Positions 1,849-64,000 of a DNA stretch of 64,000 nt are shown one piece after another. The stretch comes from Candidatus Enterousia intestinigallinarum. GTDB taxonomy: Bacteria > Pseudomonadota > Alphaproteobacteria > Rs-D84. The stretch lies in contig OX097180.1 of assembly GCA_944407095.1 (NCBI GenBank), forward strand, positions 310,001-374,000, read 5' to 3'. Under the pieces are notes generated by a model. That model saw only the letters and a program-made list of their open reading frames with translations. It was not told where the DNA came from and made no database searches. The first letter of the stretch is position 1. The number at the start of each line of letters is the position of its first letter. Made by a program: the position numbers and the translations under genes.

Positions 1849-2676
1849 CTAATCTTCGGAATAATTACAATTTTGTGTAAATTGATATGTACCCGCGGTT
1901 TCAGTTATACTGCGATTTGCGGTAATATAGCACCTGGTTATATGCGACGGTTCGGGCTCGTTAATGGGGCACCCATTATCTGTTGTTCCATACACCCCAC
2001 CCAACGCCGGACAACGCAGACAGTCATAATCCTTGCCCTGATTGGTAATAACACCATCCACATAATTATTATTTACCAAATAATAACCTACGTCACAGCA
2101 CGGCAAGTTATCCGCACCAGCACATTCACCGTGTGTTGGACACGCCTTGCAATTTGGAGCTGCACCAAATATCAATTTACCCCCGCCATCATAATAGCCA
2201 CTTAAACAATCGCTATATTCACATCTGTTTGTCGATGTATTACAGCGCGTTTGGTAACCCTTGCCGGAAATAGTGGTCCAAGAAGTTTTGCCCTCGCACA
2301 CTAATCCATCGCATATCCTTTTACAATACGTCCACGTTACTTTACAATCTGTGGCTTCTGTTGATGTTGCCGTTACCGTCGTTAGTTCATATCCACTATA
2401 ACACGCTGTACAATATGTTTTCTTACGCTGAACATACTGGGACATATTTTGTGAATTACGTGCCATATAAGATATTGTTGCAGTCGCAGAACATCCCGTT
2501 GTTGATGTTGATGGGGTCAAACTGGCATCTTCCGCTATACTACTGCCATAAGAAGTGGTACAATTCCACCAAGTATTTTCACCCGCATCTGTTACCGATG
2601 CTGCCGCAAATGCCGCGGTACTGTATACAGTCGATACCAATATTGCCGTACAAAACTGACCGATTGTATTCGGCAA
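1849..2676 (-). CDS. Exported Cys-rich protein, unknown function
   Basis: Unrecognised family. The frame gives 275 residues with a hydrophobic N-terminal export signal ending near STAAFAAAS, then about 30 cysteines, many in C-x2-C or C-x2-GY patterns (TYCTACYSGYE, CKACPTHGEC). The last 30 residues (CYITANRSITETAGTYQF) resemble the C-terminal motif of the adjacent plus-strand Cys-rich protein and of the small cassette proteins. The start is unclear: the frame has no ATG, the best start is a TTG at 2676 without a good ribosome binding site, and the stop upstream is about 14 codons away. A promoter (TTGACG/TAAAAT) and a hairpin lie upstream. Extracytoplasmic location is inferred; the start is the weak point. 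Confidence 0.7.
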   Translation of the reverse strand: MPNTIGQFCTAILVSTVYSTAAFAAASVTDAGENTWWNCTTSYGSSIAEDASLTPSTSTTGCSATATISYMARNSQNMSQYVQRKKTYCTACYSGYELTTVTATSTEATDCKVTWTYCKRICDGLVCEGKTSWTTISGKGYQTRCNTSTNRCEYSDCLSGYYDGGGKLIFGAAPNCKACPTHGECAGADNLPCCDVGYYLVNNNYVDGVITNQGKDYDCLRCPALGGVYGTTDNGCPINEPEPSHITRCYITANRSITETAGTYQFTQNCNYSED

Positions 2677-5610: not shown

Positions 5611-5922
5611 ATGACACCAGAACACACAAACGGTTTTTATAATCTGGAAATGGCACGATTACGTTATGAAATTGCGCGCGCATACGCAACCAAGGCCGTA
5701 ATTAAACAAAGCAACCAAAATTTCCAGGATGCTTTAATCAACAAATCCATCAGTGTACACCAAGAAATTTTGGCATTGGAATCTGATTACATTGATATTC
5801 AAACATTACTATCCACATCACCAGAAACAAATATAATAAAATCCGCGATGAACATCGCATATCGACGCCATGACCATAAAATAGCAAAATATATATCCAA
5901 GTTGTGTGACCGCACACGATAA
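5611..5922 (+). CDS. Small hypothetical, mostly helical cytoplasmic protein
   Basis: Not recognised. From the ATG at 5611 the product has 103 residues, begins MTPEHTNGFYNLEMARLRYE and has no signal peptide or membrane segment. It looks largely helical, with heptad-like spacing in ARLRYEIARAYATKAVIKQS. A TTG at 5578 would add 11 residues, but the TTGACA/TATCAT promoter makes that region untranslated. It is monocistronic, between clpP and the first leader-RNA cassette. Coding status is supported by the good promoter and AAAGGA site. Confidence 0.65.
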   Translation: MTPEHTNGFYNLEMARLRYEIARAYATKAVIKQSNQNFQDALINKSISVHQEILALESDYIDIQTLLSTSPETNIIKSAMNIAYRRHDHKIAKYISKLCDRTR

Positions 5923-5963: not shown

Positions 5964-6176
5964 GTTGACAGGTATTCTGTCAATGGGGTGTGACTACCCT
6001 TATGAACGCGTCGGAATATACAAACATGGCGCACAAAGTGCGCTGTTTTAATATTACGACGAAAAATAAACTCCTGAACATTTAGGTCAGGAGGGTCGCT
6101 GAATATCAAATACGCGACACAATTCGTTCAATTGTAGTCAACCTCCTGACCACCAAAACGCTTGGTGGTTTCTTTT
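5964..6176 (+). ncRNA. Structured leader RNA, copy A (upstream of cassette 1)
   Basis: Cis-regulatory RNA candidate. P1: TTGACAG 5965-5971 with CTGTCAA 5977-5983, then GGGGTG. P2 is long range: TGACTAC 5991-5997 with GTAGTCA 6134-6140, extended by TGAACG 6003-6008 with CGTTCA 6125-6130. An inserted hairpin (CGTCG...CGACG with GCGCAC/GTGCGC inside) lies at about 6009-6064. P3: CTCCTGA 6071-6077 with TCAGGAG 6087-6093. P4: GTCGC 6095-6099 with GCGAC 6114-6118 around the conserved GAATAT loop. A second CTCCTGA at 6143-6149 can compete for the P3 partner. It ends with terminator stem ACCACCAA/TTGGTGGT (6149-6156, 6162-6169) and TTTCTTTT. This copy is the most diverged, yet every helix is kept by paired changes. 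Confidence 0.8.
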
Positions 6177-6202: not shown

Positions 6203-6640
6203 ATGCACAAATATTTCTTAATCGCCGGCGCAATTTGTATCGCCACAATTTCACCAACTTTTGCAATATCCGTAATGCCAATTGGTGGTGTAACAAAATG
6301 CGTACAGTTATCACGTTCAACAACATGCGTCGCTGAACAACAAGCATCTACATCTAAAGTAGATTGGTCTGTAACTTGTGGCACAAAAAATATATCAGTC
6401 ATTGGAATTAGTATGTGCGCATCATCAAGCGGCAGTGCGGGCACCGCAAGCACATCATTATCAAGATCCGATGAAAATAATAACTGTTGGTGCAAAATGG
6501 TTTCACCTGCTGTTTCCAGATGGATATCCAGTGGCTTTTCTTCTGTTGCTTGCCACAGGGATTGCGCAGGTTCTTGCAGACGCGCATTGGAAGATAATTC
6601 CACCTTTCGTTCGGCAATGTTCAGTAATTTATCTGACTAA
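6203..6640 (+). CDS. Cassette 1 first gene: exported Cys-containing protein
   Basis: Unknown function; one of five paralogs. It has 145 residues. The ATG at 6203 follows AGGAG by 7 bases. The signal peptide MHKYFLIAGAICIATISPTF precedes a mature part with TKCVQL near the start, a variable middle, and the family block NNCWCKMVSPAVSRWI. It ends FRSAMFSNLSD as in the other copies. Predicted to be exported and disulfide-bonded. It is cotranscribed with the small partner gene 18 bases downstream. It sits behind a leader RNA with a terminator, so expression is probably attenuated. Compared with the other copies it has an extra segment (ISVMPIGG) after the signal peptide. Confidence 0.85.
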   Translation: MHKYFLIAGAICIATISPTFAISVMPIGGVTKCVQLSRSTTCVAEQQASTSKVDWSVTCGTKNISVIGISMCASSSGSAGTASTSLSRSDENNNCWCKMVSPAVSRWISSGFSSVACHRDCAGSCRRALEDNSTFRSAMFSNLSD

Positions 6641-6658: not shown

Positions 6659-6961
6659 ATGAAACAAATATTTGTATTTATTATGGCAATCGCCCCAACA
6701 TGTGTGATTGCAGCCGCACCATCAACATCATGCCCCACGGGTTATGTCGCTATTACAGAAAGTTATTTAACCATTGAATCTGGCACCTGCCCATCGGGCA
6801 CTACGTCTGTTGGTTCAGCATACAGCTGTCTGGTATCAAATCCAAATGGTTCATGCATGATGTACGCGCCAACCGGGGTCAATTATACTGATAGTACCGG
6901 CACATACGAATTTACAGAACCATGCCCAATGTCTGGTATAAATATATCCCCTGTTGGATAA
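6659..6961 (+). CDS. Cassette 1 second gene: small exported protein
   Basis: Unknown function; 100 residues. The signal peptide MKQIFVFIMAIAPTCVIAAA is followed by PSTSCPTGYVAITESYLTIE, a central TCPSGTTSVGSAYSCL, and the family ending with CMMYAPTGVNYTDSTGTYEF. It has eight cysteines counting the one in the signal peptide, spaced as in the four other copies. This copy is the most diverged and has a longer tail. The ATG at 6659 is preceded by GGGGGAC. It is the last gene of the cassette, followed at once by a terminator shared with the convergent methyltransferase gene. Confidence 0.85.
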   Translation: MKQIFVFIMAIAPTCVIAAAPSTSCPTGYVAITESYLTIESGTCPSGTTSVGSAYSCLVSNPNGSCMMYAPTGVNYTDSTGTYEFTEPCPMSGINISPVG

Positions 6962-8782: not shown

Positions 8783-10513
8783 ATGAAAAAAATCTTCACA
8801 TTTTTAATAGCAATATTCTTGCCGTTTGCGGCGATTGCCGCCGACCGGCCTGATATCAATGTACTGTCCGACGCGGACGCAAGTTTATACACTCAAATTT
8901 TCCTGTTGCAAAGCGAAGAAGAAATTTCCGCGGCACAAAAATTGGAAAAGCAACTATCCGATCCATTATTGATGAACGAGGTTTTATACCAACGCTTCAT
9001 ATCCAAGACATATCGCACCCGTGGCAAAGAACTGGTATCCTGGATGGAAAAATATTATGATATGCCGGGTGCAGAACGTATGGCAAAACTGGCCAAAATA
9101 AAACAGGCAACCGTTCGCAAGCCATATCTTCCCCGCACAATCAGTGGCGGCGCATCAATCGAAACGGCCCAATCGGAAACCTGGACGGCAAAGAAATATA
9201 CCGGGGACACCAATACAAAGATTACCAAATTCAAGCGCGCAATCCGCAGTGGCGCCACAAAAACTGCCCGATTGATACTGGAAGACGCGTCGTTCAAGCG
9301 CAAACTGACCGAATCGGACTATGGTCGCCTGGCGGGACGTTTATCATTTATATATTATACGAACGGCGAATTTGAACTGGCGAAAAAATGGGGTTTTGTC
9401 GCATCCGATGCAAAATCGGAATACGGCCTGTGGGCAATGGGATTATTGTATTTCAAGGAAGAAAAATATAAAGAAAGTGAAAAGTATTTCAGTGCAATCC
9501 TGGATTTGGAACAAATAAACAACGCCAGAAAGACCGAGGCCGCATTCTGGGCTGGTCGTGCGGCGGACGCCAATGGCGAACGCAGTGCCGCTAAAAAATA
9601 CTGGAAAATTGCGGCGGCACACCCAATGGCGTTTTACGGTGCATTATCGTCGGTAATGCTGGGGCACACCCCGCGTTATGAATTTTTCGAACAGGACTGT
9701 ACCGACGAAGACATCGACACATTGCGCGAGACCAAGTACGGCAAAATCGCCCTGGGGCTATTACAGGTTGACCAGAAAGACCGCGCGGAACAATATCTGA
9801 AATATATGATTACGGCCAAGGTTTCTGACCGCACATTGCACGCAATAAATTCTGTGGCAACGGCGTACGGACTGCCCCGCGTATCAATTCAGGCGTCCAG
9901 TTTAATAAAAGACCGCGGCATTTTGGAAATCGACGACAATATTATTTATTCGGCACAATATCCCCTGCCCGATTGGGAACCGATGGGCGGCTGGTCTATT
10001 GACCGGGCATTGTTGCTGGCCATTACAAAGCAGGAAAGCGGTTTCCGCACAAACGCTAAATCTGGGGCTGGTGCAAACGGCCTGATGCAGATTATGCCCA
10101 GTACCGCCAAACGCGTCGCGCGTGAAAACAAGGTAAATATGTCCGATATTGATATGTTAAATCCAGAACACAATATGTTCCTGGGGCAACAGTATATTGT
10201 GGACCTGTTGGCGCATCCAAACATAAACAACAATATAATAAAAATGTTGGCCGCATATAACGCCGGGATGGGAACCCTGGTTGAATTTGAACGCGATTTT
10301 CAAACATACGATCCATTATTGTATATCGAAAGTTTTCCGACATACGAAACCCGCAGTTATATCAAGCGTGTAATGTCAAATATGTGGCTGTATCGCGCCC
10401 GACTAGATCAACCATTGACCACTATGCGTGATTTAGCGGACGGCGAATGGCCACTGTACAACAGCGAAGATGAATACGTTCAAAAGCAGATTGCCGACCG
10501 TATGGCGATTTAG
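8783..10513 (+). CDS. Soluble lytic murein transglycosylase (GH23, Slt70-like)
   Basis: Periplasmic enzyme that cleaves peptidoglycan glycan strands to 1,6-anhydro products. It has 576 residues. The signal peptide MKKIFTFLIAIFLPFAAIAA comes first, then a long helical repeat region (about residues 30-410, the U-shaped superhelix of Slt70), then the SLT catalytic domain. The catalytic glutamate lies in AITKQESGFRTNAKSGAGAN, followed by GLMQIMPSTAKRVA and MLAAYNAGMGTL. An upstream ATG at 8744 overlaps nrdR and would spoil the signal peptide, so 8783 is chosen. Its stop overlaps the stop of the convergent Xre gene by four bases. Confidence 0.95.
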   Translation: MKKIFTFLIAIFLPFAAIAADRPDINVLSDADASLYTQIFLLQSEEEISAAQKLEKQLSDPLLMNEVLYQRFISKTYRTRGKELVSWMEKYYDMPGAERMAKLAKIKQATVRKPYLPRTISGGASIETAQSETWTAKKYTGDTNTKITKFKRAIRSGATKTARLILEDASFKRKLTESDYGRLAGRLSFIYYTNGEFELAKKWGFVASDAKSEYGLWAMGLLYFKEEKYKESEKYFSAILDLEQINNARKTEAAFWAGRAADANGERSAAKKYWKIAAAHPMAFYGALSSVMLGHTPRYEFFEQDCTDEDIDTLRETKYGKIALGLLQVDQKDRAEQYLKYMITAKVSDRTLHAINSVATAYGLPRVSIQASSLIKDRGILEIDDNIIYSAQYPLPDWEPMGGWSIDRALLLAITKQESGFRTNAKSGAGANGLMQIMPSTAKRVARENKVNMSDIDMLNPEHNMFLGQQYIVDLLAHPNINNNIIKMLAAYNAGMGTLVEFERDFQTYDPLLYIESFPTYETRSYIKRVMSNMWLYRARLDQPLTTMRDLADGEWPLYNSEDEYVQKQIADRMAI

Positions 10514-10860
10514 TCCGCCACATTTAACGCCACAGCAATTTTGGCAATAACATCACGTTTTTTACCCGGCAATTTATAAATCAGGGTTATCAAATCTGCC
10601 ATTGGCTTATCGTGAATATAATCGGCATTTGATTCTGTGTAAAATGCGGACGGCGATATTTCAAATATATGACAAAGTTCATTTAACAGTGCGGCACTAA
10701 TTCGGCATTGGCCACTTTCATATTTGTGAATTTGCTGAAATGTGACACCTATTTTGTCACCTAATTCCCGTTGGGTCATTCCCATACGTGCACGTAGCAT
10801 CACCATAACACGTCCGACACAAATATCAAATTCGTTCACCTGATGCTTTTTTCCGCCCAT
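10510..10860 (-). CDS. Xre-family HTH transcriptional regulator
   Basis: DNA-binding regulator of 116 residues. A Cro/C1-type helix-turn-helix spans residues 15-70 (VGRVMVMLRARMGMTQRELG, then DKIGVTFQQIHKYESGQCRI). The C-terminal helical tail ends KRDVIAKIAVALNVAD. Many alphaproteobacteria have such proteins. The ATG at 10860 follows GGGGGGAATT, and a longer frame upstream runs into the leader RNA and is rejected. It is the only gene behind this leader RNA that is not a secreted-protein cassette, which suggests it shares their regulation or controls them. Target genes are unknown. Confidence 0.92.
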   Translation of the reverse strand: MGGKKHQVNEFDICVGRVMVMLRARMGMTQRELGDKIGVTFQQIHKYESGQCRISAALLNELCHIFEISPSAFYTESNADYIHDKPMADLITLIYKLPGKKRDVIAKIAVALNVAD

Positions 10861-10871
10861 AAATTCCCCCC

Positions 10872-11054
10872 ATAATAAAAAACCACCGGAAAATATTTTC
10901 AGGTGGGTTGGAGGTTCACAACTATTAGTACGAATAGCGTGCTTTATTGGATATTCAGCACCCTCCAACCCCAGGGTTGGAGAACTTTTCATTTCGTCTA
11001 TACGAAACGCGTACTATCGGGTTGTGACACCCCATACCGGCAACACGCCGATAC
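10872..11054 (-). ncRNA. Structured leader RNA, copy F (upstream of the Xre regulator)
   Basis: Read on the minus strand. P1: CGTATCGG/CCGGTATG (11054-11047 with 11039-11032), then GGGGTG. P2: TCACAAC (11026-11020) with GTTGTGA (10921-10915), extended by TAGTACG (11015-11009) with CGTACTA (10931-10925). A local hairpin TTTCGT/ACGAAA follows. P3: CCAACC (10979-10974) with GGTTGG (10969-10964). P4: GTGCT (10960-10956) with AGCAC (10942-10938) around GAATAT. The terminator is CCACC-tGAAAA/TTTTC-cGGTGG, then TTTTTT, ending near 10874. TATAAT at 11066-11061 places the transcript start at P1. Helix sequences differ from the other copies but still pair. Confidence 0.8.
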
Positions 11055-12931: not shown

Positions 12932-13210
12932 CTATTCCAGCGGACACGCAGACGTAAATTCATATGAACCGCTGTCGTCGGTATAAGTTACCCCGGTTGG
13001 CGCATACATTATGCACGAACCGGCCGGTGACGACGCCAGACAACTGTCCGCCGTACCGGCGGATGTATATCCACTGGGACACGTGCTGTCCGCGATTTCC
13101 ATATACGATTCCACAACCGCAACATAACCCGCCGGACACGACGTGGACGGTGCGGCGGCAAATGCGCCAATCGGCGCAATCGCCATAATTAAAATAAATA
13201 TTCGTTTCAT
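12932..13210 (-). CDS. Cassette 2 second gene: small exported protein
   Basis: Unknown function; 92 residues. The signal peptide MKRIFILIMAIAPIGAFAAA is followed by PSTSCPAGYVAVVESYMEIA, a TCPSGYTSAG core and the ending SCIMYAPTGVTY plus DDSGSYEFTSACPLE. Its mature part is almost identical to copies at 20757, 55427 and 63147, which implies recent duplication or gene conversion. The ATG at 13210 follows GGGGGCG. It lies 12 bases behind its partner gene. Confidence 0.87.
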   Translation of the reverse strand: MKRIFILIMAIAPIGAFAAAPSTSCPAGYVAVVESYMEIADSTCPSGYTSAGTADSCLASSPAGSCIMYAPTGVTYTDDSGSYEFTSACPLE

Positions 13211-13222
13211 ATTCGCCCCCAT

Positions 13223-13645
13223 TTAGTCAGATAGTCCACTATACAGCCCCGCCCGCCCAGGCTCACTCTCCTCGGAGATGAACCCACAGTTGTTCGAGCA
13301 CCCGTCAGCGCAATGCCCGGCGGAATCGTGGGTGTAGGCGAAAACCCAGCGCGACACCGCGGGCGAAACCATTTTGCACCAACAATTTTTGTTATCGTCA
13401 CTGGTTGAACTGGTCGTGACTTTTTCGGATTTTGTACCCATTGAACCACCATTTTGAGATCCGCAAAATGCAACACCCTGAATTTCTATACCGCCACAGG
13501 TTGCTGACCAATTTGACTGACCGAACGCGCCAGAGACACTTGTACACGTTGTTGATGACGTTAGTTTTACGCATTTTGTGACCGCATACGCTGGTGGGAT
13601 TGATGCCGCACAAATTATGCCGGCGATGATTAAATGTTTTTTCAT
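13223..13645 (-). CDS. Cassette 2 first gene: exported Cys-containing protein
   Basis: Unknown function; 140 residues. The signal peptide MKKHLIIAGIICAASIPPAYA is followed by VTKCVKLTSSTTCT. A variable centre contains GSQNGGSMGTKSEKVTTSS. The conserved block KNCWCKMVSPAVSRWV follows, then a Cys-containing tail ending LYSGLSD. The ATG at 13645 has an ideal AGGAGG seven bases upstream; longer frames start inside the leader RNA. Its stretch from GGIEIQGVAFCGS is close to the copy at 54995, while the tail differs, as if parts were shuffled between copies. Confidence 0.87.
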   Translation of the reverse strand: MKKHLIIAGIICAASIPPAYAVTKCVKLTSSTTCTSVSGAFGQSNWSATCGGIEIQGVAFCGSQNGGSMGTKSEKVTTSSTSDDNKNCWCKMVSPAVSRWVFAYTHDSAGHCADGCSNNCGFISEESEPGRAGLYSGLSD

Positions 13646-13671
13646 TCTAAACCTCCTTTTCATTGCGAATG

Positions 13672-13833
13672 AAAAAACCACCAAAATATTTCAGGTGGTT
13701 GGAGGTTAGTAACTATTAAAGGTAATAGTGTCGTTTATTCAACATATTCACGAACCCTCCAACCCGTATCAGTTGGAGTATTGATTTCCTTTAAGAGGTT
13801 ACTACACCCCGCATTGGTAAAATCACCAATGCA
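13672..13833 (-). ncRNA. Structured leader RNA, copy B (upstream of cassette 2)
   Basis: Read on the minus strand. P1: GCATTGGT (13832-13825) with ACCAATGC (13818-13811), then GGGGTG. P2: TAGTAAC (13804-13798) with GTTACTA (13713-13707), extended by TTAAAGG (13794-13788) with CCTTTAA (13722-13716). P3: CTCCAAC (13778-13772) with GTTGGAG (13763-13757). P4: TCGT (13753-13750) with ACGA (13734-13731) around GAATAT. A second CCTCCAACC overlaps terminator stem AACCACC/GGTGGTT (13700-13694, 13682-13676), followed by TTTTTT. TATAGT at 13844-13839 places the start at P1. The T-run can also pair with AATGAAAA just before the AGGAGG site. Confidence 0.82.
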
Positions 13834-14407: not shown

Positions 14408-14479
14408 TTTTTCCTGTCCCCCTGTTGTTAGGTGAATATAATTATAGTGCGCCATAAATATTTTTACAGTGGTACAAAA

Positions 14480-14510
14480 AAATCCCACCCAATCGGGCGG
14501 GATTTATATT
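14480..14510 (-). terminator. Intrinsic terminator for the DsbA-like gene
   Basis: Minus strand ATCCCGCCCgattGGGTGGGAT followed by TTTTTT. Confidence 0.8.
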
Positions 14511-14527
14511 TAGTCGTGAAAAAGATA

Positions 14528-15361
14528 TTATTCCGCTTCGTCCAATGCCGTTTCGATTTGTGCGGCCGGAATCGCGCCCGGGAACGCCTGTTCACCGATA
14601 ATCAGGAACGGTGTTCCGCTGATTTCAAAGCGCTGTGCCAAATCACGAACGTTTCTTAATTCGCGTGCGACAACATCGCTGTCCATATCTTTTTTCAACT
14701 GTTCTGTATCCAGACCTGCTTCGGCAGCCATTTTCATAACGTTGGCTTCAACCTTTTCAGCAATCTTGTCCTGGTCTTTCAGGTCGTCCTGGGTATAGAA
14801 TTCGCGGGTCATCAACATATTTGTCAGTTCTGCCGCCTTGGTTGGATCCTGCATATTTGCAGCAATCACCGCGCGCGCCGGTCCATCTGACAACGGCCCG
14901 TGGATAGAGAAGTTCTTGATAACTACGCGTGTATCGTCACGATCCGCCAATACGCGTTCGATTTCACCGTGTACACGGCGGCAATACGGACAAGAGAAGT
15001 CAGTCCATACATAAATCGTCTTTTTCGCATCGCGGTTACCCAAAATCGGGGCATCACGCATCATTTTGTCGCCTTCGGAACGAACAAATTTACGAATCTG
15101 TTTGTTCTTTTCGGCCTGTTGCTGTTCCTGCATACCGTTGACCATTTCCTGAACGATTGCCGGATTTATCGCTGTCAGATAGTACGGCGTATACAGACGG
15201 CACATACTGCCCGCAATCAGGATAATCGCAATAACGGAAATGCACTTTTTTGCAACGACTTTTCCAGCAGACGGCTTTTTCTCGTCACCCTTTGGCAGCA
15301 ACATACCGCCAAACAGGTACAGAAGAACACCAACCACCAGAACCAAGATTGTCCAAGTCAT
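14528..15361 (-). CDS. Membrane-anchored DsbA-like thiol-disulfide oxidoreductase
   Basis: Predicted to form or isomerise disulfides in exported proteins. It has 277 residues. Two N-terminal hydrophobic segments (MTWTILVLVVGVLLYLFGGM and ISVIAIILIAGSM) anchor it. A helical linker follows, then a thioredoxin fold of DsbA type with active site SCPYCRR after TIYVWTDF, and the cis-proline loop ISGTPFLIIG. The start at 15361 follows AAAGGAG. Relatives are common in alphaproteobacteria (Com1/DsbA family). The many Cys-rich exported proteins in this window are natural client candidates; that link is inference. Confidence 0.93.
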   Translation of the reverse strand: MTWTILVLVVGVLLYLFGGMLLPKGDEKKPSAGKVVAKKCISVIAIILIAGSMCRLYTPYYLTAINPAIVQEMVNGMQEQQQAEKNKQIRKFVRSEGDKMMRDAPILGNRDAKKTIYVWTDFSCPYCRRVHGEIERVLADRDDTRVVIKNFSIHGPLSDGPARAVIAANMQDPTKAAELTNMLMTREFYTQDDLKDQDKIAEKVEANVMKMAAEAGLDTEQLKKDMDSDVVARELRNVRDLAQRFEISGTPFLIIGEQAFPGAIPAAQIETALDEAE

Positions 15362-15440
15362 AGTTTTTCTCCTTTATCTGTTGAACCGAATAAAAGATAC
15401 TGAAAAAAAAACCTTTGTGCAAGGAATAAATTGAACAATA

Positions 15441-16094
15441 TTACGCGCCGCATATCATACGACGCGCCGCGGGCAAATCAACGCCCTGAAACATACAGGC
15501 ACGTTCCAAAAAACGCCGCGTTAAATCCAAATTCATCGGCAGTTTATACAATCGTTCCGCATATGGCGCCCCACAGTTTGCACACACCGCCCGCCCTGTG
15601 CGTGGTGACAGATATTCCAGATTGTCGTGCGTTCCACACCCAGAACAAGCATTCAAATTTAATGCATACCCCAATTCACGCAACAGCGATATTTCCCACC
15701 GTAAATATACATCGTACGGCGACGCCCCGGTCAACCCGTGCAACAAATCCAACGTTTCATCATACAGTGCACGGTACTGTTCACGTTCCGGTAACAATGC
15801 CGCAACCAGCGCAAACGCACTGTTCATATACGCCAACGTTTCAGCCGACATCATCAGCGTTGCGGCCAGATTTTTTTCCGCATCCCAATGAAACGCGCCC
15901 AGTTGCGAATCCAGCCGCGCGTTCCACGCGACGGCGCCGAATTGTCCGACCAACGGTTTGTTTTTGCGTGCAATTTGCGCCCCCCGCATCATTCCGCACA
16001 ACACACCGAAATCAGACGTAAAAATTCGCGCAACCGAATCACGTTCCCCAAACGGCCGCAGTGCAATCAAAATTCCATTTGATTCTAATTTCAT
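15441..16094 (-). CDS. recO: DNA repair protein RecO
   Basis: Recombination mediator that works with RecF/RecR to load RecA on gaps. It has 217 residues. The N-terminal OB-fold (SNGILIALRPFGERDSVARI, then FTSDFGVLCGMMRGAQ) is followed by a helical domain and a zinc site with CSGCG and CANCG. Length is slightly under the usual 230-250. Monocistronic; the 290 bases downstream of its start hold no clear gene. Confidence 0.95.
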   Translation of the reverse strand: MKLESNGILIALRPFGERDSVARIFTSDFGVLCGMMRGAQIARKNKPLVGQFGAVAWNARLDSQLGAFHWDAEKNLAATLMMSAETLAYMNSAFALVAALLPEREQYRALYDETLDLLHGLTGASPYDVYLRWEISLLRELGYALNLNACSGCGTHDNLEYLSPRTGRAVCANCGAPYAERLYKLPMNLDLTRRFLERACMFQGVDLPAARRMICGA

Positions 16095-16328
16095 CTTGGT
16101 GACATTATATATTTATAATGAATAAAAGTTTATGAAAAAAACTCTGTCCAAGCGGCCGATATCAATTCACACAAGATTACCACTATACCACAAACTAGTA
16201 CAGGCACTGTAGTCACCCCGGACACTGGCATTATTACCGGTAAAATAGTAAATAAATAATAAAAAATATTTGTCTTTTATCGGGCTGGTATAGAAAACCT
16301 ACTCTCTACTTATACCATCCCGCCCCCA
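16095..16328. other. Intergenic stretch without a supported gene
   Basis: Between recO and rplI. An open stretch reading TSTGTVVTPDTGIITGK ends at about 16259 but lacks a start codon and may be a gene remnant. A hairpin (TGGTATA/TATACCA type) lies near 16286-16322. No tRNA or promoter was recognised. Confidence 0.5.
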
Positions 16329-16362
16329 CAAAAAAACACCCCGCGTTTGCGGGGCGTTTTAC
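16329..16362 (-). terminator. Terminator of the rpsF-rpsR-rplI operon
   Basis: Minus strand CCCCGC-aaa-GCGGGG followed by TGTTTTTTTG. Confidence 0.85.
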
Positions 16363-16384
16363 AAAACAAAATATTATCTGTTTT

Positions 16385-16996
16385 TTATTCGGCGTCAGCA
16401 GTTTTTTCTGCGTCAGTTGCGTCAGATTTTTCCGCTGGCTGTTCCGCGGACTGAACATCCGCATCCGCCGCCGGCGTGTTTTCTTCTTCTTCAACCTTTT
16501 TAGTGCCAAATGTCAAAACCTTGCCAGCAACCAATGCCTCGATTTCATCCTGGGATTGGGCGACATAAATTTTAACAGGAACAATAACGTCCGGATGCAA
16601 TGCAATCTTAGTGTCAAATACACCAACCGATTTAATCGGGGCACCCAACATAACCTGGGCCGATTCGACGGAAACATTTGCAACTTCTTTCAACATACGC
16701 GCAATGTCACGTGTTGACACAGAACCATACAACTGGCCGGTATCCCCCGCCTGGCGAATCATATACAGTTTTGCGTTCTTGACCGCATCAACGTTAGATT
16801 CGGCCGCTTTCTTGGCAGCGTCCTGGCGTGCCTGCAGTTCGGCTTTTTTCGCTTCGAACAAAGCAACATTTTCACGCGACCAACGCATCGCCTTGCCCAG
16901 CGGCAACAAATAATTGCGTGCGAAACCGGTTTTAACCTCTACCGTGTCACCAATATTGCCCAATTTGGTAATTTTTTCTGTTAAAATAACTTTCAT
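16385..16996 (-). CDS. rplI: 50S ribosomal protein L9
   Basis: Elongated 50S protein near the L1 stalk that helps keep the reading frame. The N-domain begins MKVILTEKITKLGNIGDTVE with the typical GFARNYLLP motif, followed by the long connecting helix and C-domain. At 203 residues it is about 50 longer than usual; the extra is an acidic Ala/Glu-rich tail from about residue 165 (TKKVEEEENTPAADADVQSA). It is the last gene of the operon, about 150 bases after rpsR, with a large hairpin in between. Confidence 0.97.
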   Translation of the reverse strand: MKVILTEKITKLGNIGDTVEVKTGFARNYLLPLGKAMRWSRENVALFEAKKAELQARQDAAKKAAESNVDAVKNAKLYMIRQAGDTGQLYGSVSTRDIARMLKEVANVSVESAQVMLGAPIKSVGVFDTKIALHPDVIVPVKIYVAQSQDEIEALVAGKVLTFGTKKVEEEENTPAADADVQSAEQPAEKSDATDAEKTADAE

Positions 16997-17055
16997 TTTA
17001 TCTGTCCTTTATTTCAAGTTAGGGAAAATCCCAAATACTAATACCAATATTTATT

Positions 17056-17156
17056 GGATAATTATGTGTGCGAATTGGCAGCGTTCATTTCAGTTCCGAC
17101 GTGTATTAGACATACACGAGGAACTGTGAACGCAACAAGTCGCCACAGAATTATCC
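17056..17156 (-). ncRNA. Nested intercistronic hairpin between rpsR and rplI
   Basis: An imperfect, about 100-base inverted structure. Outer GGATAATT/AATTATCC (17149-17156 with 17056-17063), then GCGTTC/GAACGC, CAGTTCC/GGAACTG and CGTGTA/TACACG toward the loop. The base of the stem overlaps the rpsR stop codon. It may be a processing site, a translational control element or a dispersed palindrome. No T-run follows, so it is not an ordinary terminator. Confidence 0.6.
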
Positions 17157-17378
17157 AAGATTGTTGCGAACGAACGGCATCAACCCCAAATGACGCGCAC
17201 GTTTAATGGCGGTTGCCAATTCACGCTGGTCTTTCTGAGATACACCACTAATACGCGACGGAACAATTTTGCCACGTTCGGTGATATAGTGCGACAATGT
17301 CTTGATATCCTTGTAATCAATAACCTTGCCCTTTAACGGATTTGATTTTTTACGATAAATTGCTGCACGGACTGCCAT
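17151..17378 (-). CDS. rpsR: 30S ribosomal protein S18
   Basis: Partner of S6 on the 30S platform. The 75 residues are normal length, with the basic core [20 protein letters not shown] and [20 protein letters not shown]. Its start overlaps the rpsF stop by one base (TAATG), so translation is coupled. Confidence 0.98.
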
Positions 17379-17716
17379 TATTCTGCCTCCTCGGTATTCT
17401 TTTTCATCATAATAGACGGTGTTGTGGACAACGCCGCAACGCGAACGTTCAGGAAACGGATAACGTCTTCATCAATACGTGCACGACGTTCCAATTCCGC
17501 AATCTTGTCACCTGGCAGTTCAATGTTCAACATAACATAATGCGCCTTGCGATTTTTGCGGATAACATAGGCCAGGTTTTTCAAACCCCAAAATTCGGTA
17601 GATTTAACATCCCCGCCCAGTTCTTTAATAATATCAGTATATTTTGCCGCTTTTTCTTTGACCTGCGGTTCGGTCAGGTCCTGGCGGAAAACCAGAACGC
17701 TTTCATAGTAAGCCAT
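17378..17716 (-). CDS. rpsF: 30S ribosomal protein S6
   Basis: Binds 16S rRNA with S18. It has 112 residues and begins [20 protein letters not shown], with the family motif [20 protein letters not shown]. It is the first gene of rpsF-rpsR-rplI. Promoter TTGATT/CATAAT lies at 17804-17777 on the minus strand. The leader contains a CAATG/CATTG hairpin where S6-S18 autoregulation occurs in other bacteria; that role here is inferred. Confidence 0.97.
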
Positions 17717-17776
17717 TTTATTTCCTTTGGTCTTATGCAGCCAATGACACCATTGCCATTAGCAGGAACGCCCCAT

Positions 17777-17804
17777 ATTATGCCGAAAATTTTAATAAAA
17801 TCAA
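17777..17804 (-). promoter_or_regulatory. Promoter of the rpsF operon
   Basis: Minus-strand TTGATT (17804-17799) and CATAAT (17782-17777), spacer 16. Confidence 0.5.
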
Positions 17805-17873
17805 GTATTTTCTGGCCAAGCGATTTTTATAATATAAAAATATAAATAAGATTGGTTGGTTACTGGTTATCAC

Positions 17874-17903
17874 TTGACTTAAAAATACAAAATTTACTAA
17901 TAT
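17874..17903 (+). promoter_or_regulatory. Promoter of the MotA/TolQ-like operon
   Basis: TTGACT (17874-17879) and TAATAT (17898-17903) with an 18-base spacer. AAGAGAGA precedes the ATG. Confidence 0.55.
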
Positions 17904-17933
17904 CATTATATACAGCAGTAAGAAGAGAGATAT

Positions 17934-18710
17934 ATGACAAATCAATTTCACCGCGCATTAAATCGTATGGCGTTATTTACCGCATTATTGGTGGCGGGCT
18001 TGATTTTGTTTTATGAACCGTTTTTGCGCGTAGCGTCGGCAAATATACTGCTGAACGGGATTATTATCGGAACAACTATTTTTGGGATTGGATTATGTTT
18101 TGTCGAAATGTTCCGCCTGTTGCCTGAATATAAATGGGCACGCGCGTACTTTGCCGGGAAAAAGAATGCCCCCCTGCCCCCACGCCTGTTACGTCCCGTT
18201 GCATTGATACTGCGCGCGCGTCCGGTGCGTATATCTGCATCAACCCTGAACGGTATGTTGGATATGATATTATTACGATTCGAAGATTCGCGCGAATCCG
18301 TACGATATATAACAAACACGTTGATATTTCTGGGACTGCTGGGGACTTTTTGGGGATTGATTGTAACGGTTGGCGGTTTTGCCGATTTGATTGGTGCGCT
18401 GGATTTTGCGGACGAATCAGTTATGCAAACAATGCAGGCGGGTTTGACACGTCCCCTGTCGGGTATGGCAACCGCGTTCACCAGTTCGCTGATGGGACTG
18501 GCGGGCAGTTTGACAATCGGTTTTCTGGGACTGCAGGTACAACTGGCACAAAATGGAATATATCGCGAACTGGAAGATTACCTGTCCGCGCACACCAGTG
18601 TTGCCGCAACTGACACCGTTGCAACTGTACTGCCCCAGATAAACAACGCTGCAAATGAATTAAACAAAAGTGTACGCGAATTGCGGGAAACATTTTCTGA
18701 ACTGGCCTGA
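17934..18710 (+). CDS. MotA/TolQ/ExbB-family proton channel protein
   Basis: Inner-membrane protein of the proton-driven motor family, 258 residues. Early membrane segments (MALFTALLVAGLILFYEPF and ILLNGIIIGTTIFGIGL) are followed by a cytoplasmic part. Then come the conserved membrane pair: ITNTLIFLGLLGTFWGLIVT and the Pro/Gly-Met region LSGMATAFTSSLMGLAGSLT. The next gene is a MotB/OmpA-type protein 27 bases downstream, so they probably form one complex that uses proton flow to act on the envelope. No flagellar genes are visible nearby; a wall- or division-linked motor is more likely than flagellar rotation. Confidence 0.88.
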   Translation: MTNQFHRALNRMALFTALLVAGLILFYEPFLRVASANILLNGIIIGTTIFGIGLCFVEMFRLLPEYKWARAYFAGKKNAPLPPRLLRPVALILRARPVRISASTLNGMLDMILLRFEDSRESVRYITNTLIFLGLLGTFWGLIVTVGGFADLIGALDFADESVMQTMQAGLTRPLSGMATAFTSSLMGLAGSLTIGFLGLQVQLAQNGIYRELEDYLSAHTSVAATDTVATVLPQINNAANELNKSVRELRETFSELA

Positions 18711-20101: not shown

Positions 20102-20273
20102 GATATGGGGTGTTCCCATATTGGGCTTAAGAACCCATCCGTTGCGTCGCCACGACGTAAAATGAAAATCCAACCTGTTGGGTTGGAGTGTGTTGAATAT
20201 ATTGAATAAAACACGCAATTCAACGGATTGTTCTTAAACTCCAACCACCTGAAGATTTCTGGTGGTTTTTTCA
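20102..20273 (+). ncRNA. Structured leader RNA, copy C (upstream of cassette 3)
   Basis: P1: ATATGGG 20103-20109 with CCCATAT 20115-20121, then GGG. P2: TTAAGAAC 20127-20134 with GTTCTTAA 20230-20237, extended by ATCCGTTG 20137-20144 with CAACGGAT 20221-20228. A local CGTCG-cca-CGACG hairpin follows. P3: CCAACC 20170-20175 with GGTTGG 20181-20186. P4: GTGTT 20190-20194 with AACAC 20210-20214 around GAATAT and AATAAA. A second CTCCAACC (20239-20246) overlaps terminator stem AACCACC/GGTGGTT (20243-20249, 20261-20267) with a T6 run. The T-run can also pair with ATGAAAAA before the GGGAG site. Confidence 0.85.
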
Positions 20274-20303: not shown

Positions 20304-20744
20304 ATGAAAAAATATTTATTAATCGCCGGGTTGATTTGCACGGTAATAATTCCCCCGGCCGGCGCAGTCACCAAATGCGTGGAATTAAATAGTAGCACAA
20401 CGTGTACATCAAATTACACTGCATACTACAATAAAACTGATTGGGCAGCCACGTGTAATACAAATGGAGTAAGCATCCCAATAAGTGGCATAGGAATATG
20501 TAGTAGTACACAGGGAACTCAATATCAAACAGCAGCAGAACTAGATAGATCGTCCACACTGGACGAAAACATAAATTGCTGGTGTAAAATGACGAGTCCT
20601 GCTGTATCGCGCTGGGTGTATGTTTCAACGCCCACGTATGCCGATGGTTGCTTTAAGCTTTGCGCATACTACTGTGCAAACACTATTCGCATTCAGAGCT
20701 CTACGTCTTTCCGGTCTGCGTTGTTTAGTAATTTGTCTGACTAA
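20304..20744 (+). CDS. Cassette 3 first gene: exported Cys-containing protein
   Basis: Unknown function; 146 residues. The signal peptide MKKYLLIAGLICTVIIPPAG, then AVTKCVELNSSTTCTSNYTA. The middle, about 60 residues, is unlike the other copies. The conserved INCWCKMTSPAVSRWV block is followed by a five-Cys tail (GCFKLCAYYCANT) and the family ending FRSALFSNLSD. The ATG at 20304 follows GGGAGATAAG. Exported, probably disulfide-bonded. Partner gene 12 bases downstream. Confidence 0.87.
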   Translation: MKKYLLIAGLICTVIIPPAGAVTKCVELNSSTTCTSNYTAYYNKTDWAATCNTNGVSIPISGIGICSSTQGTQYQTAAELDRSSTLDENINCWCKMTSPAVSRWVYVSTPTYADGCFKLCAYYCANTIRIQSSTSFRSALFSNLSD

Positions 20745-20756
20745 TTGAGGGCGAAT

Positions 20757-21035
20757 ATGAAACGAATATTTATTTTAATTATGGCGATTGCGCCAATTGG
20801 CGCATTTGCCGCCGCGCCGTCTACTTCGTGTCCCGCCGGATACGTTGCGGTTGTGGAATCGTATATGGGAATCGCGAACAGCACGTGTCCCAGTGGATAT
20901 ACATCCGCCGGTACGGCGTACAGTTGTTTGGTATCGTCACCGGCCGGTTCGTGTATTATATATGCGCCAACCGGGGTAACTTATACCGACAGCAGTGGTT
21001 CATATGAATTTACATCCGCCTGTCCATTGGAATAA
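20757..21035 (+). CDS. Cassette 3 second gene: small exported protein
   Basis: Unknown function; 92 residues. Signal peptide MKRIFILIMAIAPIGAFAAA, mature part nearly identical to the other cassettes, with small changes (YMGIANSTCPSGYTSAGTAY, SCLVSSPAGSCIIY). The ATG at 20757 follows GAGGGCG. A perfect-looking terminator follows. Predicted to be exported; stable disulfides are likely from six cysteines in the mature part. Confidence 0.87.
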   Translation: MKRIFILIMAIAPIGAFAAAPSTSCPAGYVAVVESYMGIANSTCPSGYTSAGTAYSCLVSSPAGSCIIYAPTGVTYTDSSGSYEFTSACPLE

Positions 21036-54790: not shown

Positions 54791-54964
54791 TGTCGGTGGG
54801 TATTCCGCCGATGGGCTTAAGAACCCGTCAGTAGCGTCGGCAAGACGTAAAATAAATCCAACCGTATTTTGGTTGGAGTGTGGTGAATATATTGAATAAA
54901 CCACGCAATTACTACTGATTGTTCTTAAACTCCAACCACCTGAAGATTTCTGGTGGTTTTTTCA
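54791..54964 (+). ncRNA. Structured leader RNA, copy D (upstream of cassette 4)
   Basis: P1: TCGGTGG 54793-54799 with CCGCCGA 54805-54811, then GGG. P2: TTAAGAAC 54817-54824 with GTTCTTAA 54921-54928, extended by GTCAGTAG 54827-54834 with CTACTGAT 54912-54919; copy C has ATCCGTTG/CAACGGAT here, a clean set of paired changes. Hairpin CGTC-ggcaa-GACG. P3: CCAACC 54858-54863 with GGTTGG 54871-54876. P4: GTGG 54880-54883 with CCAC 54901-54904 around GAATAT. The terminator AACCACC/GGTGGTT (54934-54940, 54952-54958) overlaps a second CTCCAACC. Confidence 0.85.
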
Positions 54965-54994: not shown

Positions 54995-55414
54995 ATGAAA
55001 AAACATTTAATCATCGCCGGCATAATTTGTGTGGCATCAATTCCATCGGCGTATGCAGTCACAAAATGCGTGAAACTAACGTCGTCAACAACGTGTACAA
55101 CTTTTTCAGGTAATGGGTCAAATTGGTCAGCAACCTGTGGCGGTATAGAAATTCAGGGCGTTGCATTTTGCGGTTCTCGAAAAGGTGGTTCAATGGGTGC
55201 AACAACCGAATCTGTCACGATCAGTTCAACCAGTGACAATAACAAATATTGTTGGTGCAAAATGGTTTCACCCGCGGTTTCGTCTTGGGTGTTCTACAAT
55301 TACTCGAGCACAACCGCCGGCTATTGCGCGTACAATTGCGCGTACGACTGTGCGACCGGCGCTCGGAACTACTCCGCTTTACGGTCGGCGCTGTTTAGTG
55401 GACTATCTGACTAA
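54995..55414 (+). CDS. Cassette 4 first gene: exported Cys-containing protein
   Basis: 139 residues. Signal peptide MKKHLIIAGIICVASIPSAY, then AVTKCVKLTSSTTCTTF, WSATCGGIEIQGVAFCGS, a short variable part (RKGGSMGATTESVTIS), and KYCWCKMVSPAVSSWVF. The tail has CAYNCAYDCATG and the ending ALRSALFSGLSD. Close to cassette 2 in the centre. The ATG follows GGGAGATAAG. Unknown function; exported. Confidence 0.87.
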   Translation: MKKHLIIAGIICVASIPSAYAVTKCVKLTSSTTCTTFSGNGSNWSATCGGIEIQGVAFCGSRKGGSMGATTESVTISSTSDNNKYCWCKMVSPAVSSWVFYNYSSTTAGYCAYNCAYDCATGARNYSALRSALFSGLSD

Positions 55415-55426
55415 ACGGGGGCGAAT

Positions 55427-55705
55427 ATGAAACGAATATTTATTTTAATTATGTCGATTGCGCCGATTGGCGCATTTGCCGCCGCGCCGTCCACTTCGTG
55501 TCCCGCTGGATATGTTGCGGTTGTGGAATCGTATATGGAAATCGCGGACAGCACGTGTCCCAGTGGATATACATCTGCCGGTACGGCGGACAGTTGTCTG
55601 GCGTCGTCACCCGCCGGTTCGTGTATAATGTATGCGCCAACCGGTGTAACTTATACCGACGACAGCGGTTCATATGAATTTACATCTGCCTGTCCATTGG
55701 AATAA
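55427..55705 (+). CDS. Cassette 4 second gene: small exported protein
   Basis: 92 residues. Signal peptide MKRIFILIMSIAPIGAFAAA. Its mature protein appears identical to that of cassette 2, including YMEIADSTCPSG and DDSGSYEF. The ATG follows GGGGGCG. Such strong identity of only the second gene implies recent copying or purifying selection, while the first gene varies. A terminator follows. Confidence 0.87.
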   Translation: MKRIFILIMSIAPIGAFAAAPSTSCPAGYVAVVESYMEIADSTCPSGYTSAGTADSCLASSPAGSCIMYAPTGVTYTDDSGSYEFTSACPLE

Positions 55706-63121: not shown

Positions 63122-63147
63122 CAAAACGCCCATTTGGGCGTTTTGCT
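63120..63147. terminator. Bidirectional intrinsic terminator
   Basis: AAAACGCCCatttGGGCGTTTTG between convergent genes. Confidence 0.8.
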
Positions 63148-63428
63148 TATTCCAACGGACAGGCGGATGTAAATTCATATGAACCGCTGTCGTCGGTATA
63201 AGTTACCCCGGTTGGCGCATACATAATACACGAACCGGCCGGTGACGACGCCAGGCAACTGTACGCCGTACCAGCAGATGTATATCCACTGGGACACGTG
63301 CTGTCCGCGATTTCCATATACGATTCCACAACCGCAACGTATCCAGCGGGACACGAAGTGGACGGCGCGGCGGCAAATACACTAATTGGCAAAACTAATA
63401 AAAATAAAATAAATATAAATTTGTTCAA
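63147..63428 (-). CDS. Cassette 5 second gene: small exported protein with TTG start
   Basis: 93 residues. The only in-frame start with a ribosome binding site (GGGGGAAAAA) is the TTG at 63428. The signal peptide MNKFIFILFLLVLPISVFAA is unlike the other copies, yet from AAPSTSCPAGYVAVV onward the mature protein is almost identical to cassettes 2 and 4. This points to recombination at the signal-peptide/mature boundary. Exported, six cysteines in the mature part; function unknown. Confidence 0.85.
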   Translation of the reverse strand: MNKFIFILFLLVLPISVFAAAPSTSCPAGYVAVVESYMEIADSTCPSGYTSAGTAYSCLASSPAGSCIMYAPTGVTYTDDSGSYEFTSACPLE

Positions 63429-63443
63429 TTTTTCCCCCTTATG

Positions 63444-63848
63444 TCAATTTTCAAAACTGCCAAACATCCCCTGCTTGAAGTCAGCATTTGTAAAAGCCGT
63501 ACTACATTGTTTCGCACAGCCGTCAGAACACGTGCCATACGATGCCATTGTCCAATCAGATACAGCAGGCACCGTCATTTTACAAAAACAATACCTTCCA
63601 CTTTCAGAAATATTGACGGCTTCCTGTGTTTTTCCCGTTGTGGGTGGCATTGGTCCAGTACTTGAACATACAGCCACCCCAGATATTGGAACGCCACCAC
63701 ATCTGCCATTAAAATCTGTATTTGAACCCGAAGTCGCCGAAACTGTACAAGAAGAACTGGCAGTAAATGCTACACACTTTGTCACCGCATACGCTGGTGG
63801 GATTGATGCCGAACAGATTATGCCGGCGATGATTAAATGTTTTTTCAT
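63444..63848 (-). CDS. Cassette 5 first gene: exported Cys-containing protein
   Basis: 134 residues. Signal peptide MKKHLIIAGIICSASIPPAY as in cassettes 2 and 4, then AVTKCVAFTASSSCTVSATS. The middle is unique (NTDFNGRCGGVPISGVAVCS). The WCKM block is replaced by YCFCKMTVPAVSDWTM, and the tail has CSDGCAKQC and the diverged ending KQGMFGSFEN. The most altered C-terminus in the family. The ATG at 63848 follows AGGAGG. Partner gene 15 bases downstream. Confidence 0.85.
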   Translation of the reverse strand: MKKHLIIAGIICSASIPPAYAVTKCVAFTASSSCTVSATSGSNTDFNGRCGGVPISGVAVCSSTGPMPPTTGKTQEAVNISESGRYCFCKMTVPAVSDWTMASYGTCSDGCAKQCSTAFTNADFKQGMFGSFEN

Positions 63849-63874: not shown

Positions 63875-64000
63875 AAAAAACCACCAAAATATTTCAGGTG
63901 GTTGGAGGTTAGTAGCTATTGTAATAATAGTGTTGTTTATTCGTGATATTCACAACCCTCCAACCTAAATTGTGGAGGCGATATTTTATGTCATCTCTGA
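63875..64000 (-). ncRNA. Structured leader RNA, copy E (cut by window end)
   Basis: Minus strand, 3' part only. P3: CCTCCA (63978-63973) with TGGAGG (63962-63957). P4: GTTGT (63956-63952) with ACAAC (63936-63932) around GAATAT (63951-63946) and GAATAAA. The P2 3' strand is present (AATAGCTACTAA), but its partner lies outside the window. Terminator AACCACC/GGTGGTT (63903-63897 with 63885-63879) with a T6 run. Sequence is close to copy B near the gene. Confidence 0.78.

Follow-up and report, generated by a model that had tools for sequence, protein, structure and literature searches.

Dispersed two-gene cassettes in a Candidatus Enterousia genome as probable descendants of a retroelement target operon

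How did one small two-gene cassette come to be present five times within 64,000 bases of a bacterial genome, and what might its products do? The window analyzed here is that whole stretch, positions 310001-374000 of a single-contig genome (G000; 1,001,484 bases, 99% complete) of Candidatus Enterousia, a genus of gut Alphaproteobacteria with reduced genomes that belongs to the order Rs-D84 (PMC12306168). An earlier note had placed five cassettes in the window, on both strands, and described in each a leader RNA followed by a first protein (P1), a gap of 12-18 bases, a second protein (P2) and a terminator. Every P1 and P2 lies where that note put it, and the order recurs in five of five cassettes, with P1-P2 spacings of 18, 12, 12, 12 and 15 bases in c1 to c5 and a terminator-like hairpin 3' of each P2. 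The features, in window coordinates, are listed below; R1 is the covariance model of the leader RNA, and VR denotes the variable repeat considered further on.

5984..6174 (genome 315984-316174), plus strand: leader RNA c1 (R1, E 9e-28)
6203..6640, plus strand: P1 c1, a protein of the variable type found in diversity-generating retroelements (DGRs); VR approx. 6518-6637, its residues identical in another species
6659..6961, plus strand: P2 c1
13672..13811, minus strand: leader RNA c2 (R1, E 1e-31)
13223..13645, minus strand: P1 c2; VR at the C-terminal end
12932..13210, minus strand: P2 c2
20121..20271, plus strand: leader RNA c3 (R1, E 4e-36)
20304..20744, plus strand: P1 c3
20757..21035, plus strand: P2 c3
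54812..54962, plus strand: leader RNA c4 (R1, E 6e-36)
54995..55414, plus strand: P1 c4; VR approx. 55286-55411, its DNA 100% identical to that of the copy at 261 kb; AlphaFold2 pLDDT 92
55427..55705, plus strand: P2 c4
63875..64000, minus strand: leader RNA c5, with 26 bases more beyond the window (genome 373875-374026; R1, E 3e-35)
63444..63848, minus strand: P1 c5
63147..63428, minus strand: P2 c5; signal peptide divergent, mature part 90-96% identical to the other P2s compared

The P1 proteins of the window are 134-146 amino acids long and contain exactly 10 cysteines each, whereas the P2 proteins span 92-100 amino acids. Identity to the P1 of c4 ranges from 42 to 71% among the other P1 copies, and the P2 copies are 65-99% identical; both ranges are far above chance. 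The N-termini of P1 and P2 are typical signal peptides with AYA or AFA ends, by which both proteins appear to be exported, as had been proposed. Further copies exist, and the earlier note's count of five gives way to a genome total of 12 P1 and 11 P2 genes. At 208 kb, two tandem P1 genes share one unit; the P1-P2 pair at 984 kb has no leader RNA; and a typical leader precedes 9 of the 11 P1-P2 units. A 275-amino-acid open reading frame at window positions 1849-2676 (minus strand) matches the P2 profile weakly (E 0.18) and has no Pfam match.

The identity of P1 becomes apparent in related genomes, among which Candidatus Enterousia excrementavium and Ca. E. scatequi were recovered with P1 as query. 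An RVT_1 domain scores above cut-off in 23 of 59 genomes of the genus. Twenty reverse transcriptase (RT) loci were fetched and scanned for pairs of a template repeat (TR) and a VR; only pairs in which the A or T bias was 75% or higher were reported, so the total of other repeats cannot be told from the scan. Fourteen of these loci yielded 15 pairs, each longer than 100 bases, in which 208 of the 218 mismatches fall at template adenines. With one exception (G010), the repeat that carries the changes forms the C-terminal end of a P1-family protein, and its partner is found close to the RT. This adenine-specific pattern near an RT is the hallmark of a DGR, and the P1-family homologues are its targets, with a C-terminal VR that differs from a nearby TR at the adenines of the TR. 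The earlier note, which considered a secreted two-component factor or surface pair plausible, missed this relationship and hence both the origin of P1 and its likely role.

The P1-family target adjoins a DGR-type RT in G032, G003, G021 and other genomes. The locus of G032 reads P1, TR, a gene for 108 amino acids, P2 and RT; P2 can therefore belong to a DGR operon. The closest solved relative of the G032 RT is the DGR RT of phage BPP-1 (8ub7, E 2.5e-45), with other RTs at about 1e-20 or weaker. In its motif 4 the G032 enzyme has IGNLTSQ, the variant characteristic of DGR RTs. The 108-amino-acid gene is conserved beside the RT in most loci with TR/VR pairs and has no Pfam match. Its product (MTLDEI...KIDKYYSFS; L068:3424-3747, with homologues in L134-L153) is encoded where an accessory gene, Avd for example, would be expected. 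The exceptional G010 locus (L135) encodes a divergent DGR RT (32% identical) and a different type of VR (FWSASSDEGRLVRCADYNGD...), with 13 of 14 mismatches at A.

What remains of this machinery in G000 lies directly after the leaderless P1-P2 pair at 984 kb, where genome positions 984843-985169 encode a 109-amino-acid RT fragment that is 72% identical over its 109 residues to the intact RT of G032. The fragment matches the BPP-1 RT structure 8ub7 (E 2.6e-7) and the PHROG 1423 reverse transcriptase (E 1.6e-25). No RVT_1 domain, and thus no complete DGR RT, was found in the G000 genome, and no A-biased repeat was found in the six cassette regions scanned for a TR. A different set of parts survives in G027, where the peptidase gene that also precedes the G000 locus is followed by P1, a shortened TR, the 108-amino-acid gene and P2, and the RT is absent from the corresponding place. 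The 984-kb locus of G000 retains P1, P2 and the RT fragment and is missing the 108-amino-acid gene. G032 has the intact DGR, and G027 and G000 would represent stages of its loss. Because only an RT fragment and no detected TR are left, the cassettes of G000 look like frozen products of former hypermutation.

Since no TR was found in the six regions of G000, adenine specificity in this genome was assessed with the TR of G032 as a surrogate, from which the older copies have drifted. Codon positions 1 and 2 of the G000 VRs differ from this template at 58% of A sites and 27% of non-A sites (p 9e-20). Codons corresponding to AAY in the template have kept the form NNY in 98 of 130 cases, compared with 194 of 355 at other sites (p 4e-5). 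The best fit comes from the copies that have drifted least (c4 and those at 261 kb, 11 kb and 984 kb), which show NNY at nearly all AAY-equivalent sites. Ordinary diversifying selection could account for part of the variability at VR sites. Across the genus, an RT was detected in 0 of 7 genomes with at least 10 P2 genes and in 24 of 52 others (Fisher p 0.035, uncorrected for phylogeny), which is only suggestive of a link between many P2 copies and loss of the RT; in the draft genomes of relatives, an absent RT may reflect incompleteness.

The copies in G000 bear the marks of recombination. From the sequence CWCKM through the VR and into the signal peptide of P2, c4 and the copy at 261 kb are 100% identical, whereas upstream their identity falls to 58-90%. 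Cassette c5 is 90-96% identical to others in P2, whereas a large part of its P1 shows an identity of about 40%. Exchange also crosses species boundaries: c1 together with about 450 bases upstream is about 98% identical to the corresponding region of G066 (L087), an island within syntenic flanks that are about 80% identical. This agrees with the earlier proposal that the cassettes move or are exchanged as units. The residues of the c1 VR are identical in G066, and judging from this comparison they are frozen. The site of c2 is empty in G027, whose cassette sits one gene block further on. A 103-amino-acid open reading frame (window 5611-5919, plus strand) lies just 5' of leader c1 within the exchanged island. 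In G082 (L061), the gene block next to the c2 site, a set of housekeeping genes at window positions 14476-18496, is inverted beside cassettes, suggesting recombination between inverted cassettes.

We consider it very probable that the window cassettes are dispersed descendants of a P1-P2 target operon whose DGR has decayed and that they encode an exported recognition module. The descendants might still be diversified in trans by an RT and TR present in other members of the population or in a missed part of the genome, as trans-diversified targets are reported in Thiohalocapsa PB-PSB1 (PMC10907252); the NNY codons of the least drifted copies would fit such a process. That system resembles G000 in that a single genome contains several scattered target loci, with duplications and with loci that are incomplete, but it keeps its RTs, and what is targeted there are the CLec domains of conflict-system proteins, whereas the machinery appears lost from G000 and its targets are small exported Cys proteins. 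Continued diversification is made very unlikely by a 99% complete single-contig genome with an RT fragment only, by c1 VR residues shared between species and by the DNA identity of c4 and the 261-kb copy. Moreover, even in RT-positive G032 the TR matches its cis VR only, among the loci fetched, and for this reason we read the dispersed copies as past duplicates rather than present trans targets. A lineage-specific, positively selected family of ordinary small exported Cys-rich proteins with no DGR history is barely credible. Searches of Pfam, NCBIfam and PHROGs gave nothing convincing for P1 or P2, as might be expected of such a family, and Cys-rich exported families are common in G000; yet P1 has direct homologues among DGR targets whose TR/VR pairs are A-specific, and an RT remnant stands beside a P1-P2 pair. 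The DGR loci of relatives already contradict a history of this kind.

Recombining paralogues with a variable core between conserved ends also recall antigenic variation by gene conversion, as with pilS and pilE or Borrelia vls, in which many silent donors feed a single expression site. The mosaic copies, the transfer of VRs and two chimeric leaders in G027 (L065 and L075) accord with this likeness. Most G000 copies nevertheless look independently expressible: a promoter-like site lies 5' of 8 of the 9 leader-bearing copies examined, the copies have an intact frame, ribosome site and terminator, and no unique expression site was found. In addition, variability tracks former adenine sites, the starting diversity would stem from a retroelement, and we regard a silent-cassette system as unlikely. 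It is distinctly unlikely that P1 and P2 are cargo of a mobile element or integron-like cassette. The c1 island exchanged between species and the empty c2 site in G027 would fit such an element, but no transposase or integrase was noticed next to the cassettes, and a search for terminal repeats of the c1 island found only short, chance-like ones. Homologous recombination using flanking identity accounts for that island, and the leader occurs apart from P1-P2 genes.

In this clade the pair encoded by the descendants of the target operon is a genuine unit, as had been claimed: all 11 P2 genes of G000 lie 3' of a P1 gene, and elsewhere the two are fused in both orders (P2-P1 in one open reading frame of 213 amino acids in L086 and in two in L033; P1-P2 in L220). 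The pair is not inseparable, however. In most sister species P1 is found with no P2, an outcome that the earlier note had named as evidence against its own proposal. In other species the P1 domain is terminal or internal in much longer Cys-rich proteins. These proteins and the fusions lead us to favor a split adhesin-like recognition module, for which we infer ligand binding, P1-P2 contact and export.

The AlphaFold2 model of mature c4 P1 (pLDDT 92) shows five strands followed by a helix at residues 87-104. When the G032 TR is mapped onto the model, the AAY-derived residues lie mostly in this helix (89, 92, 93, 96, 97, 100, 101 and 104) and largely on one side of it, with a CxxxCxxxC motif behind them. 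A survey of 36,611 DGR targets found annotated VRs systematically in C-type lectin folds (PMC8144416). In the c4 model, the VR domain has no detected resemblance to a C-type lectin, and its variable residues would lie mainly on a helix. Foldseek returned no match at E 0.001 in PDB or BFVD, the best VIA hit (Z 4.0) was a single-stranded DNA-binding protein, and a sequence profile found no PDB match for P1; such missing matches neither exclude a C-type lectin nor establish a new fold. The P2 model is not confident (pLDDT 46), and no P2 was found in IMG/VR viral contigs.

In our proposed mechanism, the RT of related species would copy the intergenic TR into the C-terminus of P1 and randomize the template adenines, and each window cassette would fix one variant of the former P1-P2 target operon. 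What now maintains and alters the repertoire would be the duplication of copies, their recombination with one another and their passage from species to species, in place of adenine mutagenesis. P1 would present a varied, disulfide-braced surface centered on the helix, and P2 would serve as a short Cys-rich partner or linker. The loci of relatives share with known DGRs (BPP-1 Mtd and the cellular DGRs of Legionella and Treponema) an RT closest to that of BPP-1, a TR near the RT, a C-terminal VR, adenine-specific mismatches and an exported target. They depart from them in the gene without a Pfam match at the accessory position, and G000 departs further in that its RT is reduced to a fragment, no TR was detected in the six regions and its target is a two-gene family with many members. 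With less assurance, we lean toward a broader reading: an orphaned repertoire of DGR targets, multiplied and shuffled by recombination like germline-encoded receptors, with the VR borne on a helix of a disulfide-rich exported domain other than a C-type lectin, and an undescribed order-wide leader that also controls HTH regulators. Our literature search found nothing relevant on abandoned DGRs or on riboswitches of Rs-D84. DGRs that are intact, in partial decay or altogether lost occur side by side in this metabolically reduced gut lineage, which makes the fate of an abandoned hypermutation system traceable. A helix-based VR domain, if confidently established, would widen the range of targets of adenine mutagenesis and supply a new scaffold.

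The leader RNA is a new, separate, covarying RNA family that extends through the order. Two-sided changes occur at 18 base pairs, with a covariation score of 0.372 compared with 0.125 in shuffled alignments (0 of 500 as high). In an alignment of 22 leaders, 91% of cells pair and 124 two-sided changes are seen, whereas shuffles give 37 (0 of 500 as many); the signal vanishes when the partners are shifted. The 39 cassette leaders have kept a long-range helix, two or three hairpins, a GGTGG terminator hairpin and a short clasp that forms a pseudoknot, and in these a 6-base-pair helix retains its pairing with a different sequence in nearly every copy. Rfam gave nothing consistent for the leader at gathering or relaxed thresholds.

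R1 identifies 24 strong leader copies in G000, of which 9 precede P1 and 15 precede other genes: those for Cys-rich exported proteins, small HTH proteins and a 387-amino-acid protein, along with one or two whose identity is unclear. One of the 15 is a sixth leader in the window.

10877..11034, minus strand: leader RNA ahead of an HTH regulator rather than P1 (R1, E 4e-25)
10513..10860, minus strand: XRE/Cro-type HTH protein behind the sixth leader (HTH_3, E 9e-11)

About seven small HTH genes of G000 share the P1-type leader. It was detected in 35 of 35 genomes sampled from the genus, in 12 of 18 from the rest of the order and in 0 of 6 outside it. This order-wide spread, mostly before other genes, argues against the idea that the leader is a cassette-specific part; it belongs instead to a larger family that is also found 5' of HTH regulators and of exported proteins other than P1. 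Its copies number 46, 41 and 39 in G010, G019 and G023, whose genomes do not exceed about 1 Mb. For an RNA that reaches 46 copies in a genome of this size and is absent from Rfam, the signal it responds to is a testable question.

Most copies would be transcribed from their own promoter-like site through this structured 5' element, which ends in an intrinsic terminator. Because the stable fold includes the terminator, regulated readthrough is a natural hypothesis, and from the modeled fold the leader probably acts by regulated termination. It resembles terminator-type riboswitches and attenuators in its multi-helix 5' structure, its two-sided covariation and the terminator before the gene, and differs from them in that the simple antiterminator tested does not remove the terminator. 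That candidate, a pairing of GGTTGGAG with CTCCAACC, is kept in 39 of 39 leaders but is about 11.6 kcal/mol worse, and as the terminator forms anyway in 38 of 39 leaders, we do not claim an antiterminator switch. Several leaders 5' of P1 are irregular. In the chimeric L065 and L075, the 5' and 3' halves derive from different leader types and the long-range helix is broken, and L080 and L084 are decayed remnants followed by an inverted-repeat region (CCGTTTGGATTCG ... CGAATCCAAACGG). An element like this inverted repeat also lies near the leaderless unit at 984 kb.
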